Assembly (NCBI GenBank): GCA_903847315.1
Contig: CAINDG010000049.1
Span: 1-37,496, forward strand
Direction of reading: 5' to 3'
DNA: 37,496 bases
Source of the DNA: an uncultured Planctomycetota bacterium
GTDB taxonomy: Bacteria > Planctomycetota > Phycisphaerae > Sedimentisphaerales > UBA12454
This document shows, piece by piece, positions 21,587-27,474 of the stretch (within the stretch, counting starts at the first letter, position 1; every line of letters starts with the position of its first letter). Position numbers and translations under genes: made by a program. The notes under the pieces were generated by a model, which saw only the letters and a list, made by a program, of their open reading frames with translations, was not told the origin of the DNA and searched no databases.

Positions 21587-21610
21587 AATGCAAAAGTAAA
21601 TATTGATATC

Positions 21611-21708
21611 CAGTGACAGGGGAGCCCCAAAGAATCGGGGCTGAGAGGCTGCACAAGACAGCGACCCTTTGAACCTGAACAGCGGTAATACCTGCGAAGG
21701 GAGGCACA
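21611..21708 (+). promoter_or_regulatory. TPP riboswitch (THI element)
   Basis: The conserved thi-box words are in order: GGGGAGCCCC, an unconserved hairpin end, GGGGCTGAGAGG near 21637-21648, then GACCCTTTGAACCTGAAC and GCGGTAATACCTGCGAAGGGA. CTGAGA and ACCTGA are the core residues that recognise the pyrimidine and help fold the pocket. It lies in the leader of thi4 and is followed at once by an intrinsic terminator, so thiamine diphosphate should switch transcription off. Confidence 0.97.
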
Positions 21709-21719
21709 AGAAATAATTG

Positions 21720-21787: not shown

Positions 21788-22534
21788 ATGAAAGAAATTC
21801 AAATCAGCAGGGCAATCATCGAACAGTTCACAAGCAAGCTGCTTGACAGGCTTGAAAATGATGTTGTCATCGCAGGCTCGGGACCGGCCGGTCTTGCCGC
21901 GGCATATTATCTTGCGAAAAACGGCGTAAAGACAACTGTTATCGAAAGAAAACTTGCCATCGGCGGCGGAATGTGGGGCGGTGCCGCGGGCTTTAATGAA
22001 ATCGTTCTCGAAGATTCCGAAATCCTCGATGAAATAGGAATACCATCAAAAAAGAAAGACGGTTTGGCTATCGTCGATTCCGTCGAATTCGCCACAACGC
22101 TTTGCAACAAAACAATCGCAGCGGGCGCAGTTGTATTTAATCTTATGGATATCGAAGATATCATAGTCAAGAAAAACGCTGTCTGCGGCGTTGTCGTCAA
22201 CGGCACAGGAATAAGGCTTGCAAAGCTTCACGTTGACCCGTTCTGCATAAGCGCAAAAATCGTTGTCGATTCTACCGGCCATCCCGCCGAGCTTGTCGCT
22301 ATGTTAAAGAACAGGCAAGAAGACTTTCATATAAAGAAAATCGGCGAAGGTTTTATGGATGTCGAAACTTCCGAGGCTGGTGTCGTTGAAAAAACCGGCG
22401 AAATCTTCAAAGGACTCTACGTCGCCGGTATGAGCGTTTGCTCTGCTTATAATCTGCCGAGGATGGGCCCGATTTTCGGCGGAATGTTAAAATCAGGCAA
22501 AAAAGTTGCTGAGCTGATAAATGCAAAACTGTAG
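21788..22534 (+). CDS. thi4: Thi4-family thiazole synthase
   Basis: This 248-residue flavin/NAD-fold enzyme makes the thiazole half of thiamine from NAD and glycine. The dinucleotide motif VVIAGSGPAGLAAAYYLAKNG is at 26-46, then GGGMWGGAAGFNEIV, VDSTGHPAEL, and the C-terminal MGPIFGGMLKSGKKVAELI. The stretch after the GH motif has no cysteine that could be the sulfur donor of the yeast suicide enzyme. It is therefore more likely a catalytic, sulfide-using enzyme of the archaeal type, which fits an anaerobe; this is inference. It is controlled by the TPP riboswitch upstream. The HD gene overlaps its end by 14 bases. Confidence 0.95.
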   Translation: MKEIQISRAIIEQFTSKLLDRLENDVVIAGSGPAGLAAAYYLAKNGVKTTVIERKLAIGGGMWGGAAGFNEIVLEDSEILDEIGIPSKKKDGLAIVDSVEFATTLCNKTIAAGAVVFNLMDIEDIIVKKNAVCGVVVNGTGIRLAKLHVDPFCISAKIVVDSTGHPAELVAMLKNRQEDFHIKKIGEGFMDVETSEAGVVEKTGEIFKGLYVAGMSVCSAYNLPRMGPIFGGMLKSGKKVAELINAKL

Positions 22535-23957: not shown

Positions 23958-25973
23958 ATGAAAGTTTCTTTAAACTGGCTCAAAGATTACGTTCAGATAA
24001 CCGAATCTCCGCAGGAGCTTAGCGCTCTTTTGAGCAATTTAGGCTTCGGCACAGAAAGCATCGAGCAGACTGGCGACGATACCGTCATAGACATTGAAAT
24101 CACGAGCAATCGTCCCGATTGTCTCTGTCACATCGGCATAGCGCGCGAAATCGCCGCCGCTACAGGCAGAGAGCTTACGATTCCGAAAGTAAAATTTGAG
24201 CCTCTCAAAAAAGACATTGCCTTAATGATTAGCGTCGAGATACTTGAACCTCAACTCTGCGGCAGATACACCGCAAGGATAATCGAAGGCGTAAAAATCG
24301 GCCCCAGTCCTTCCTGGATGGCTAAAAAACTCGAAGCTATCGGTCTTCGCAGTGTAAACAACGTCGTTGATGCGACAAACTATGCGATGATGGAGACCGG
24401 CCAGCCTCCTCACGCGTTCGATTACAATAAAATTCGCAACGCAAAAATTATTGTCCGCCTGGCAAAAAAAGGCGAAAAACTCGTCAGCATCGACGGCACA
24501 AATTGCGTTCTTTCGCCAGATATGCTCGTTATCGCAGACCCATCCGGCCCTGTCGCCGTAGCAGGCGTTATGGGCGGCCTCGAAACTGAGGTAAGCAATT
24601 CAACCATCAATATTCTTCTCGAGGATGCCTCTTTTAATCCGGTAATCACCCGAAAAACCTCACGAAATCTCAACCTGCCCAGCGAGGCGGCGTACAGATT
24701 CGGCCGAACGGTCGATATTGAGCAGATTGACTGGGCATCGCAGAGAACCGCTCAGCTTATCGCTCAGGTCGCGGGTGGAAAAATCGTCGAAGGCGTTGTT
24801 GACGCCTATCCCGGCAACACTCCGAACAATCGTAAGGTTGCAATGAGGTTCAGCAGGGTCAAAAAACTGCTCGGCATAGACGTCTCTCAGCCGTCGGTCT
24901 TTGAAATTCTTCGCGGCCTGGCTTTCAGTCCGCAGAAAAGCGAAACGGATAAAATTTTATGCACTATTCCCACCTGGCGGCCTGATATTGCAAGAGAAGT
25001 CGATTTGATTGAGGAAGTCGCAAGGGTTTTCGGCTACGATAAAGTCGGCATACGCCAGAAAATCAACATCGAAGTCGCTCCCGTTGACCAAAGACAGCAG
25101 ATAATCGGCAAAGCAAGCGGCTTTCTGAACAGTTGCGGCTTCTATGAAACTATAACGCCGGGCTTCTCTGAAGACAAAACAGCACAACTGATAACCGACA
25201 AAACAGCGGATATTCATCTTGTTGTAAAAAATGAAAGCAGCAGAACCGCAAATTTACTCAGAAGCTCTCTGGTCGGCTCATTACTTGAAGTCCTCGCCCG
25301 CAATTACAACGCCGCCAATAAAAATATAAAAATTTACGAAATAGCGAACGTGTTCAGGAAACTCGAAAACGGCGCCCATACGGAATATTGCTCTTTGGCT
25401 GCTCTTTGCGATGATGATTTTCGAATCCTGCGGGGAGCGATTGAAGGCGCGATAAAGACCGTTGACGGTCAGGCAAAAATCGTATTCAAACCCGCCGATA
25501 TCTTCTGGGCAAAGACCGGCGCTGAAATAACTGTAAACGGCCAGACAATCGGTTTCGCCGGCGCGGTAAAAGACCAGATTTTATCTTCGCTCGACATCAA
25601 GGCTCAATTAGTTTGCGCCGCCGAGATTAATTTTGATATGCTCGCTCAGTTAAATCCCGAACAAATCAAAGCAAAACCGCTGCCGAAATTCCCCGCCATC
25701 AGCAGAGACCTTTCGCTGATAGTCGGTGAACCTGTTCAATGGTCGCAAATAGAGACTGTTGTCTTATCGAAAGCTCCGCAGGAGCTTGAGGATTTTAAAT
25801 TTGTCGGCATTTACAGAGGCAAGCCCATCCCTGCCGGCAAAAAGAGCGTTACCGTTTCGCTCTGTTTCAGAGATGACGACGGCACCTTGCAGCACCAGAC
25901 CGTTGACTCTTGGCAGAAAGATATTATTTCCACTCTCACTGCCGCTGTCGGCGCAGAACTAAGACAGGCATAA
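23958..25973 (+). CDS. pheT: Phenylalanyl-tRNA synthetase beta chain, short form
   Basis: This 671-residue beta chain charges tRNA-Phe with PheS, which is not adjacent. The N-terminus (MKVSLNWLKDYV...ESIEQTGDD) goes straight to VIDIEITSNRPDCL. The EMAP/OB-like tRNA-binding domain of about 110 residues found in E. coli-type PheT is missing. The B3/B4 editing domain (VVDATNYAMMETGQPPHAFD), B5 domain and catalytic-like core follow. The C-terminal FDX-ACB anticodon domain is intact (LPKFPAISRDLSLIVGE to GAELRQA). It has its own promoter just upstream. Confidence 0.95.
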   Translation: MKVSLNWLKDYVQITESPQELSALLSNLGFGTESIEQTGDDTVIDIEITSNRPDCLCHIGIAREIAAATGRELTIPKVKFEPLKKDIALMISVEILEPQLCGRYTARIIEGVKIGPSPSWMAKKLEAIGLRSVNNVVDATNYAMMETGQPPHAFDYNKIRNAKIIVRLAKKGEKLVSIDGTNCVLSPDMLVIADPSGPVAVAGVMGGLETEVSNSTINILLEDASFNPVITRKTSRNLNLPSEAAYRFGRTVDIEQIDWASQRTAQLIAQVAGGKIVEGVVDAYPGNTPNNRKVAMRFSRVKKLLGIDVSQPSVFEILRGLAFSPQKSETDKILCTIPTWRPDIAREVDLIEEVARVFGYDKVGIRQKINIEVAPVDQRQQIIGKASGFLNSCGFYETITPGFSEDKTAQLITDKTADIHLVVKNESSRTANLLRSSLVGSLLEVLARNYNAANKNIKIYEIANVFRKLENGAHTEYCSLAALCDDDFRILRGAIEGAIKTVDGQAKIVFKPADIFWAKTGAEITVNGQTIGFAGAVKDQILSSLDIKAQLVCAAEINFDMLAQLNPEQIKAKPLPKFPAISRDLSLIVGEPVQWSQIETVVLSKAPQELEDFKFVGIYRGKPIPAGKKSVTVSLCFRDDDGTLQHQTVDSWQKDIISTLTAAVGAELRQA

Positions 25974-26034
25974 CCCCTAAACCGATAATATCACAAACAA
26001 AAAAATCCTCGCGCACGGTTCGCATAAAAACAAT

Positions 26035-26068
26035 GGGCAGGCGGATGAGGAGGATATACCGTCTGCCC
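26035..26068. ncRNA. GAGGAG-loop hairpin, copy 1 (candidate structured RNA)
   Basis: GGGCAGGCGG (26035-26044) faces CCGTCTGCCC (26059-26068), with loop ATGAGGAGGATATA. The one non-Watson-Crick position is G-U if the plus strand is the RNA and A-C if the minus strand is. On the minus strand the stem is followed by ATTGTTTTTATG, a terminator-like U tract, and the loop reads UCCUCCUC, which is anti-Shine-Dalgarno-like. A near copy lies 146 bp to the right. Confidence 0.4.
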
Positions 26069-26173
26069 TGAAGAAAAAATCAAGGAATCAAAAATCCCTT
26101 CATTATCTATACGAAAAAATAGCCAAAACTGTTTGCCTAAATAGCTGTTAAATCCTTTGTCGCAAACCAGCGC

Positions 26174-26268
26174 AAAAAAAATGGCAGGCGGCCGAGGAGA
26201 GAAACCGCCATGCCGTGTGCGCCTCCTAAAGAGGAGGAGGTACGTGTGGGTTATCTAAAATACCATTT
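26174..26268 (-). ncRNA. Candidate small RNA with C-rich loops and intrinsic terminator
   Basis: A minus-strand promoter at 26275-26304 would start an RNA near 26268. The RNA contains CCTCCT-CTTT-AGGAGG (26237-26222). It then ends in a hairpin, GGCATGGCGG (26214-26205) with CCGCCTGCC (26191-26183), loop UUUCUCUCCUCGG, followed by A and eight U (26181-26174). That is a textbook terminator, for a length of about 95 bases. Exposed CCUCCUCC and CUCUCCUC could pair with Shine-Dalgarno sequences. The same hairpin read on the plus strand exposes AGGAGA. Confidence 0.42.
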
Positions 26269-26274
26269 CCTATT

Positions 26275-26304
26275 ATTATACGTCAAGTAAAATTTCCTGT
26301 TCAA
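26275..26304 (-). promoter_or_regulatory. Candidate sigma70 promoter for the minus-strand small RNA
   Basis: On the minus strand TTGAAC (26304-26299), an 18-base spacer and a perfect TATAAT (26280-26275). No minus-strand gene lies downstream until far to the left, so a short RNA is the simplest product. Confidence 0.45.
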
Positions 26305-26613: not shown

Positions 26614-27474
26614 ATGGCGAGCCATAACCTGGCAAAAATAAATATAGGCGAACTCGAAATTATCGGTTATTCGGTCGCAGGCGAAGAAACCGTAATCGGT
26701 ATGCCGCAGTTCGATGTCTGCTTCGATATCGGCAAATCCCCTGATCAGCTTATAAGCATAAATAATGTCCTTCTTACCCACGGCCATATGGACCATTCCG
26801 CCGGAATTGCATATTACCTTTCGCACAGAAAATTCTGCGGACAACGGCCGGGCACAGTTCTTCTGCCTGAAAATCTCATACTTTCTTTGCGGGAGATAAT
26901 AGATGCCTGGGGAAGACTTGACGGAAATAAAATTCCCGCAAGACTAATCGCTATGCAGGCAGGCGATGAGTTCCAGATTAAGCCTAATCTTCTTGTCAGA
27001 GCCTTTGCGACAAAACACTGCAAAGGGTCGCTGGGTTTCACCGTTATTGAAAAAAAGAAAAAACTCAAAGAAGAATATCTCGGCCTGTCAGGCGGTGAAA
27101 TTGTCGCTTTAAAGAAAAAAGATATAGCAATAGATTATCCCGTTGAAATACCGCTCGTAACATATCTCGGCGATACGCGATATTCCAATTTCGCGAAACT
27201 GGACTATATCGCCAAAAGCAAAATTCTGATTGCCGAGTGTACCTTTGTTTGCGATGAGCATACCGACAGGGCCCTTGCCGGCGAACATATGCATATCGAC
27301 GACCTCGCTAAAATGCTCGCCGAGCTTGATAATGAATATGTAATCCTTACACACTTAAGCCAGAGAACACATATTCTGGATGCCAAAAAGATTCTGAAAG
27401 AAAGATTAAGCCCCGCCATTTATGAAAAAACGGTTTTACTGATGGACAAAAAAAGCCGCCTGCGGCAACCATAA
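26614..27474 (+). CDS. Metallo-beta-lactamase-fold hydrolase, RNase Z-like
   Basis: This 286-residue protein has LLTHGHMDHSAGIAYYLS near 53-70, the HxHxDH metal site, then TKHCKGSLGF, LGDTRYSNF (Asp ligand), ECTFVCDEHTDRA, a late HMHIDDLA and LTHLSQR. The order matches the RNase Z/ElaC branch, but the protein lacks an obvious exosite, so whether it processes tRNA 3' ends or another substrate is open. The Shine-Dalgarno is weak (GAGAAAG). The structured region lies directly upstream. Confidence 0.85.
   Translation: MASHNLAKINIGELEIIGYSVAGEETVIGMPQFDVCFDIGKSPDQLISINNVLLTHGHMDHSAGIAYYLSHRKFCGQRPGTVLLPENLILSLREIIDAWGRLDGNKIPARLIAMQAGDEFQIKPNLLVRAFATKHCKGSLGFTVIEKKKKLKEEYLGLSGGEIVALKKKDIAIDYPVEIPLVTYLGDTRYSNFAKLDYIAKSKILIAECTFVCDEHTDRALAGEHMHIDDLAKMLAELDNEYVILTHLSQRTHILDAKKILKERLSPAIYEKTVLLMDKKSRLRQP

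Follow-up and report, generated by a model that had tools for sequence, protein, structure and literature searches.

Among the closest described counterparts of the RNAs analysed here are alpha-r14/NfeR1 and the 'cuckoo' RNAs of Alphaproteobacteria, which, like ours, carry an ultraconserved CCUCCUCC-type anti-Shine-Dalgarno (anti-SD) motif within the unpaired portions of hairpins with diverged stems (PMC10746234). NfeR1 (alpha-r14) represses ntrB via the same kind of motif, occluding the ribosome-binding site (PMC10746234). Three other systems share parts of the architecture. CcsR1-4 of Rhodobacter sphaeroides are tandem sibling sRNAs that depend on an alternative (stress) sigma factor (PMC10253847). 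The multicopy LhrC sRNAs of Listeria, induced by envelope stress, comprise several siblings with a C-rich motif (PMC4132741), and in the RpoE-dependent MicA/RybB arm an ECF sigma factor switches on repressor sRNAs (PMC8103513). The locus described here lies in a 37,496-nt stretch of DNA (the window) from an uncultured planctomycete; we found no previous report of trans-acting sRNAs from this group.

Two hairpins between pheT and rnz

The 640-bp intergenic region between pheT (23958-25973, plus strand) and an rnz-like metallo-hydrolase gene (26614-27474, plus strand) holds two hairpins, built on 26-nt direct repeats (26027-26052 and 26174-26199) that are 81% identical at a spacing of 147. Shuffling the region 2000 times with its dinucleotides preserved gave no repeat of like quality. 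These shuffles and the fold z-scores given below back the initial annotation, which had proposed two related stem-loops at 26035-26216, as describing a real, non-chance feature. The plus-strand A-runs that precede the hairpins are T-runs that follow them on the minus strand, and they do so in all genomes, as expected from the minus-strand terminators also proposed there. Both hairpins were overlooked by a generic terminator scan because their loops are longer than its 8-nt limit. We conclude that the hairpins are the 3' ends of two neighbouring, hitherto undescribed minus-strand sRNA genes, predicted from sequence and designated S1 and S2. Each predicted RNA ends in a GC stem-loop followed by a U-run and lacks a coding frame, as is usual for intrinsically terminated sRNAs.

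S1 (26174-26268, minus strand) is predicted to begin near 26268 if transcribed from its ECF-type promoter (95 nt) or near 26250 from a sigma-70 promoter (77 nt). Its conserved core (26253-26174, minus strand) reads CCCACACGUACCUCCUCCUCUUUAGGAGGCGCACACGGCAUGGCGGUUUCUCUCCUCGGCCGCCUGCCA-U(8). In the predicted fold, a 5' hairpin (26218-26243, minus strand) pairs the anti-SD tract CCUCCUCCUC in cis with AGGAGG, leaving the CCUCC of S1 largely paired. An intrinsic terminator follows (26174-26216, minus strand; copy 2 of the initial annotation), with loop UCUCUCCUC and a T-run at 26181-26174 that is present in all genomes and is reduced to T5 in one (G007). Together the CCUCC/GGAGG hairpin and the terminator fold at -27.7 kcal/mol, with a z-score of -4.1 against shuffles.

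Against same-family relatives, all of them draft MAGs, the intergenic region is 71-99% identical over stretches centred on copy 2 and extending past it. S1 itself is 96-100% identical at the nucleotide level in 12 of 13 family genomes, against 64-72% for the adjacent pheT, a strong and unexplained constraint on an 80-nt RNA. Its covariance model matches the same number of genomes, at 102-113 bits for full-length copies. The core alignment (11 genomes) has 65 invariant columns out of 80, stems and linkers included, and the 5' hairpin is invariant bar one position in A1. No genome has more than one full locus: the pair of matches in G010 are both contig ends of a single one. This copy number, together with the presence of only one diverged paralogue, rules out a dispersed repeat. 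The paralogue (G007:C20:978-1052, minus strand of locus L042) keeps both UCCUCCUC tracts and the CGTATAAT box and has no clear -35 AAC.

S2 (26026-26103, minus strand; about 78 nt) consists of a 5' hairpin, variable in sequence and seen in the folds of several genomes, and a terminator with a CCUCC loop (26026-26070, minus strand; copy 1 of the initial annotation). The loop is AUAUCCUCCUCAU and the T-run TTGTTTTT occupies 26033-26026. S2 adjoins S1, about 150 nt downstream, in all 12 S1-bearing genomes. Its fold z-score is -3.1 for the window copy and ranges from -3.1 to -4.0 among those of relatives. The sequence of the terminator stem drifts while its pairing is maintained, with compensatory changes in four of six consensus pairs. 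CCUCC is kept in the loop in 12 of 12 genomes, fully unpaired in 11 and partly in one, and the anti-SD-like loops described initially are thereby upheld. The shared stem and loop fared differently: the CCUCC loop is kept across relatives, but the stem 9-mer GGCAGGCGG is unique to this genome, the 11 S2 copies elsewhere all lacking it. Conservation thus falls on the loop and the promoter rather than on the 9-mer. A 3-bp GCG/CGC 'compensatory swap', also suggested, is unconserved around copy 1 in relatives. Just past the S1 T-run, GCGC at 26170-26173 is kept in most genomes, and it recurs past some terminators of S2 and of the sibling S3 described below.

The position of the pair between pheT and rnz appears to be ancestral. 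Several genomes of the genus have a sodium/solute symporter, dnaE or other genes in place of the pheT side, with the pair intact (loci L009-L020, L033 and L041), and S1 and S2 always co-occur despite changing flanking genes. Elsewhere in the window, an ordinary TPP riboswitch (Rfam RF00059, 64.6 bits; 21608-21719, plus strand) lies upstream of a Thi4-like gene for thiazole synthesis (21788-22534).

Beyond the family, the S1 and S3 models gave only threshold- or chance-level matches in a phylum-wide sample of 343 genomes, in a search that detects recognisable homologues rather than analogues. The S1-model matches that we inspected lie in GC-rich or coding DNA and lack the motif set. The covariance search envisaged by the initial annotation therefore recovers S1 in 12 of 13 family genomes and nothing above chance in the wider phylum. 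A degenerate S1 pattern found 12 contigs in 257 Gb of genomes, all from Planctomycetes MAGs, and those that could be matched belong to the same family genomes, labelled Anaerohalosphaeraceae, Sedimentisphaerales or Phycisphaerae. No Rfam family reached threshold for S1, S2 or S3, the matches being weak and attributable to chance; Chlorobi-1 RNA (RF01696) scored 18.0 against a 50-bit gathering threshold, on the plus strand, and was rejected.

ECF-type promoters and an unlinked sibling

S1 is preceded by a putative ECF-type promoter (26275-26302, minus strand) of the form GAAC-N16-CGTATAAT, with GAAC at 26302-26299 and CGTATAAT at 26282-26275; AAC-N16-17-CGTA is found at this position in 12 of 12 genomes. 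A second, sigma-70-like promoter (TTGACG-N18-TATTTT; 26257-26286, minus strand) overlaps it, and its TTGACG is present in 10 of 12 genomes, missing from both g2 genomes. The ECF-type promoter of S2 (AAAC-N17-CGTATAG; 26107-26134, minus strand; AAAC 26134-26131, CGTA 26113-26110) is likewise present in 12 of 12, against a chance expectation in shuffled spacers of 0.7-4% per genome. AAC at -35 and CGT at -10 are the hallmark of ECF sigma factors (PMC8103513), and all 35 copies of S1, S2 and S3 that we examined have both elements at a 16-18-nt spacing. The consensus is (G/A)AAC-N16-18-CGTA(T), with G before AAC in 28 copies and T after CGTA in 29. The invariance of AAC and CGTA over the 35 copies is built into the search definition; still, the motif was found at every copy.

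The S1 promoter motif has only five matches in the genome. One is S1 itself and another led to S3, an unlinked sibling beside an asnA-like gene on contig C36. Here CUUAUUCGCCUCCUCCUAUGCU and a terminator come after the promoter, and the motif is CCUCCUCC. S3 occurs with the same promoter in 11 of 13 genomes at E<=4e-10, the E-values of these home-made models being rough. The copy in G008 scores only E=0.09 but has the GAAC-N16-CGTA promoter, CCUCCUCC and the terminator, for a total of 11-12 of 13. The S3 terminator covaries, with 5 of 12 pairs altered on both sides and a covariation score reached by none of 500 shuffles, and the anti-SD motif is unpaired in the predicted folds. The strongest evidence for a link between promoter and motif is that a search seeded with the S1 promoter reached another motif-bearing RNA. 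As a regulon finder the strict promoter motif failed, being unenriched genome-wide over a reversed control.

Two further elements resemble these RNAs. In three genomes (G000:C18:30104, plus strand; G004; G001; loci L139, L140 and L141), GAAC-N16-CGTATA followed by UUUCCUCC precedes a folC-like gene by about 330 nt. This element, whose structure is weak, is possibly either a fourth sibling or the leader of folC. At G001:C146:75923-76017 (minus strand), GAAC-N16-CGTA followed by UUCUUCCUCCUCCUCC overlaps a weak S3-model match (E 0.69) and may be an extra sibling in that genome. G008, 89% complete, is the sole family genome without S1 and also the sole one without csrA, and it keeps the S3-like RNA (n=1).

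Anti-SD motif and proposed function

The 16S rRNA of this genome ends in GGATCACCTCC, whose anti-SD is CCUCC(U). The corresponding motif is CCUCCUCCU in S1 and S3, and UCCUCCU or UCCUCCUC in S2. In a 400-kb sample with guessed gene starts, an SD tetramer precedes 31% of long ORFs, whereas its complement precedes 3%. The stronger AGGAG or GGAGG precedes 10% of long ORFs in this sample and AGGAGG only 1.5%, so that a CCUCCU seed can be selective. Enrichment of envelope-protein genes among those with strong SD sites was weak (odds ratio 2.0, p 0.046; one 437-kb sample, guessed starts) and was not used as evidence.

The likely interpretation is that S1, S2 and the unlinked S3 are co-regulated trans-acting sRNAs with ECF-type promoters that occlude the strong SD sites of selected mRNAs, the mode of action of alpha-r14/cuckoo, CcsR and LhrC in other bacteria. 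The set would be transcribed from these promoters, presumably by a single ECF sigma factor, and under the inducing stress each RNA would accumulate, ending at its intrinsic terminator. The exposed CCUCC(U), identical to the 16S anti-SD, would pair with strong SD sites of selected mRNAs and, by analogy with NfeR1 (PMC10746234), block ribosome loading. Under stress, S1 and S2 would thus probably silence selected genes at the level of translation. No conserved individual target of S1, S2 or S3 was identified. Several observations count against this interpretation: S1 is nearly invariant, stems included, which is more than SD pairing alone requires; its CCUCC is largely paired with its own AGGAGG, and most genomes have the sigma-70-like promoter; hfq is absent (0 of 13 genomes), which separates these RNAs from Hfq-dependent sRNAs; and the promoter motif is unenriched genome-wide.

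The invariance of S1 raises the alternative, which we consider unlikely, that its body (anti-SD tract, cis SD and CACACG repeats) binds 16S rRNA or a protein such as CsrA, leaving S2 and S3 as the mRNA-targeting siblings. The conserved stems and linkers and a 5' hairpin that is exactly an SD:anti-SD pair agree with this, as does csrA, which 12 of 13 genomes have, this one among them (G000 C41:39976-40134). Yet S2 and S3 have the promoter and motif in common with S1 but not the invariant body, and no hairpin loop offers the GGA that CsrA prefers. In a related form, also doubtful, S1 would act globally on translation as an ultraconserved RNA with anti-SD and SD in one switchable hairpin; it would act on 16S rRNA or the ribosome, or else be toggled by the CCUCCU of S2 and S3, which could open that hairpin. 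If true, this would be an ECF-controlled RNA circuit without known parallel, in an Hfq-less planctomycete family.

It is improbable that the hairpins do no more than terminate transcription, whether of pheT or of some unknown transcript on the minus strand, and that their loop sequences are a coincidence. Both have the shape of intrinsic terminators on the minus strand, but a promoter lies directly upstream of each hairpin's RNA, no upstream minus-strand gene exists, coding sequence is less conserved than the CCUCC loop or the S1 body as a whole, and S3 is an unlinked sibling.

The candidate regulatory RNA of the initial annotation is much strengthened by conservation, but its plus-strand reading, a CsrB/RsmZ-type sponge for CsrA, is highly improbable. 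AGGA does occur in both plus-strand loops, and csrA proved present, a positive though not diagnostic result. The G-U pair in copy 1 favours the plus strand in this genome; when all 12 genomes are compared, the minus strand gives the stronger S2 stem in 7 and the plus strand in 5, and the pair is therefore not decisive. Promoters and T-runs are kept in all genomes for the minus strand only, the plus strand having no conserved promoter, terminator or neighbour (pheT adjoins in only part of the family). On the plus strand, the two U-G pairs of the S1 stem become A-C mismatches, and just two loops are found instead of the many GGA hairpins of such sponges; S3 has no GGA. That S1 encodes a leader peptide (AGGAGG-N10-AUGGCGGUUUCU...) is scarcely credible, for although an SD-like AGGAGG stands 10 nt ahead of an AUG, it is base-paired, no in-frame stop precedes the terminator and the frame past it is unconserved.

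Comparison with known sRNA systems

The cuckoo RNAs are matched in having an unpaired motif on divergent stems: the motif is in the S2 loop in 12 of 12 genomes and is unpaired in the folds of S3, and only partly so in S1. The exact cuckoo motif CCUCCUCCC is replaced by CCUCCUCCU or a shorter form. In alpha-r14/cuckoo, three hairpins lie in one RNA, whereas the motifs here are in separately transcribed predicted RNAs, with ECF-type promoters, no sequence or Rfam match, no hfq and a different phylum. The CcsRs arise by processing of a single transcript that also carries the DUF1127 gene ccaF1 (PMC10253847); S1, S2 and the unlinked S3 each have a predicted promoter and terminator of their own. 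LhrC differs in its UCCC-type motif, LisRK control and occurrence in Firmicutes (PMC4132741), and MicA and RybB in being Hfq-dependent, unrelated in sequence and equipped with other seeds (PMC8103513). At least three sibling sRNAs with their promoters, in a family without hfq, form a testable set, and they suggest that the design in which a stress sigma factor drives sibling anti-SD sRNAs extends outside Proteobacteria and Firmicutes.
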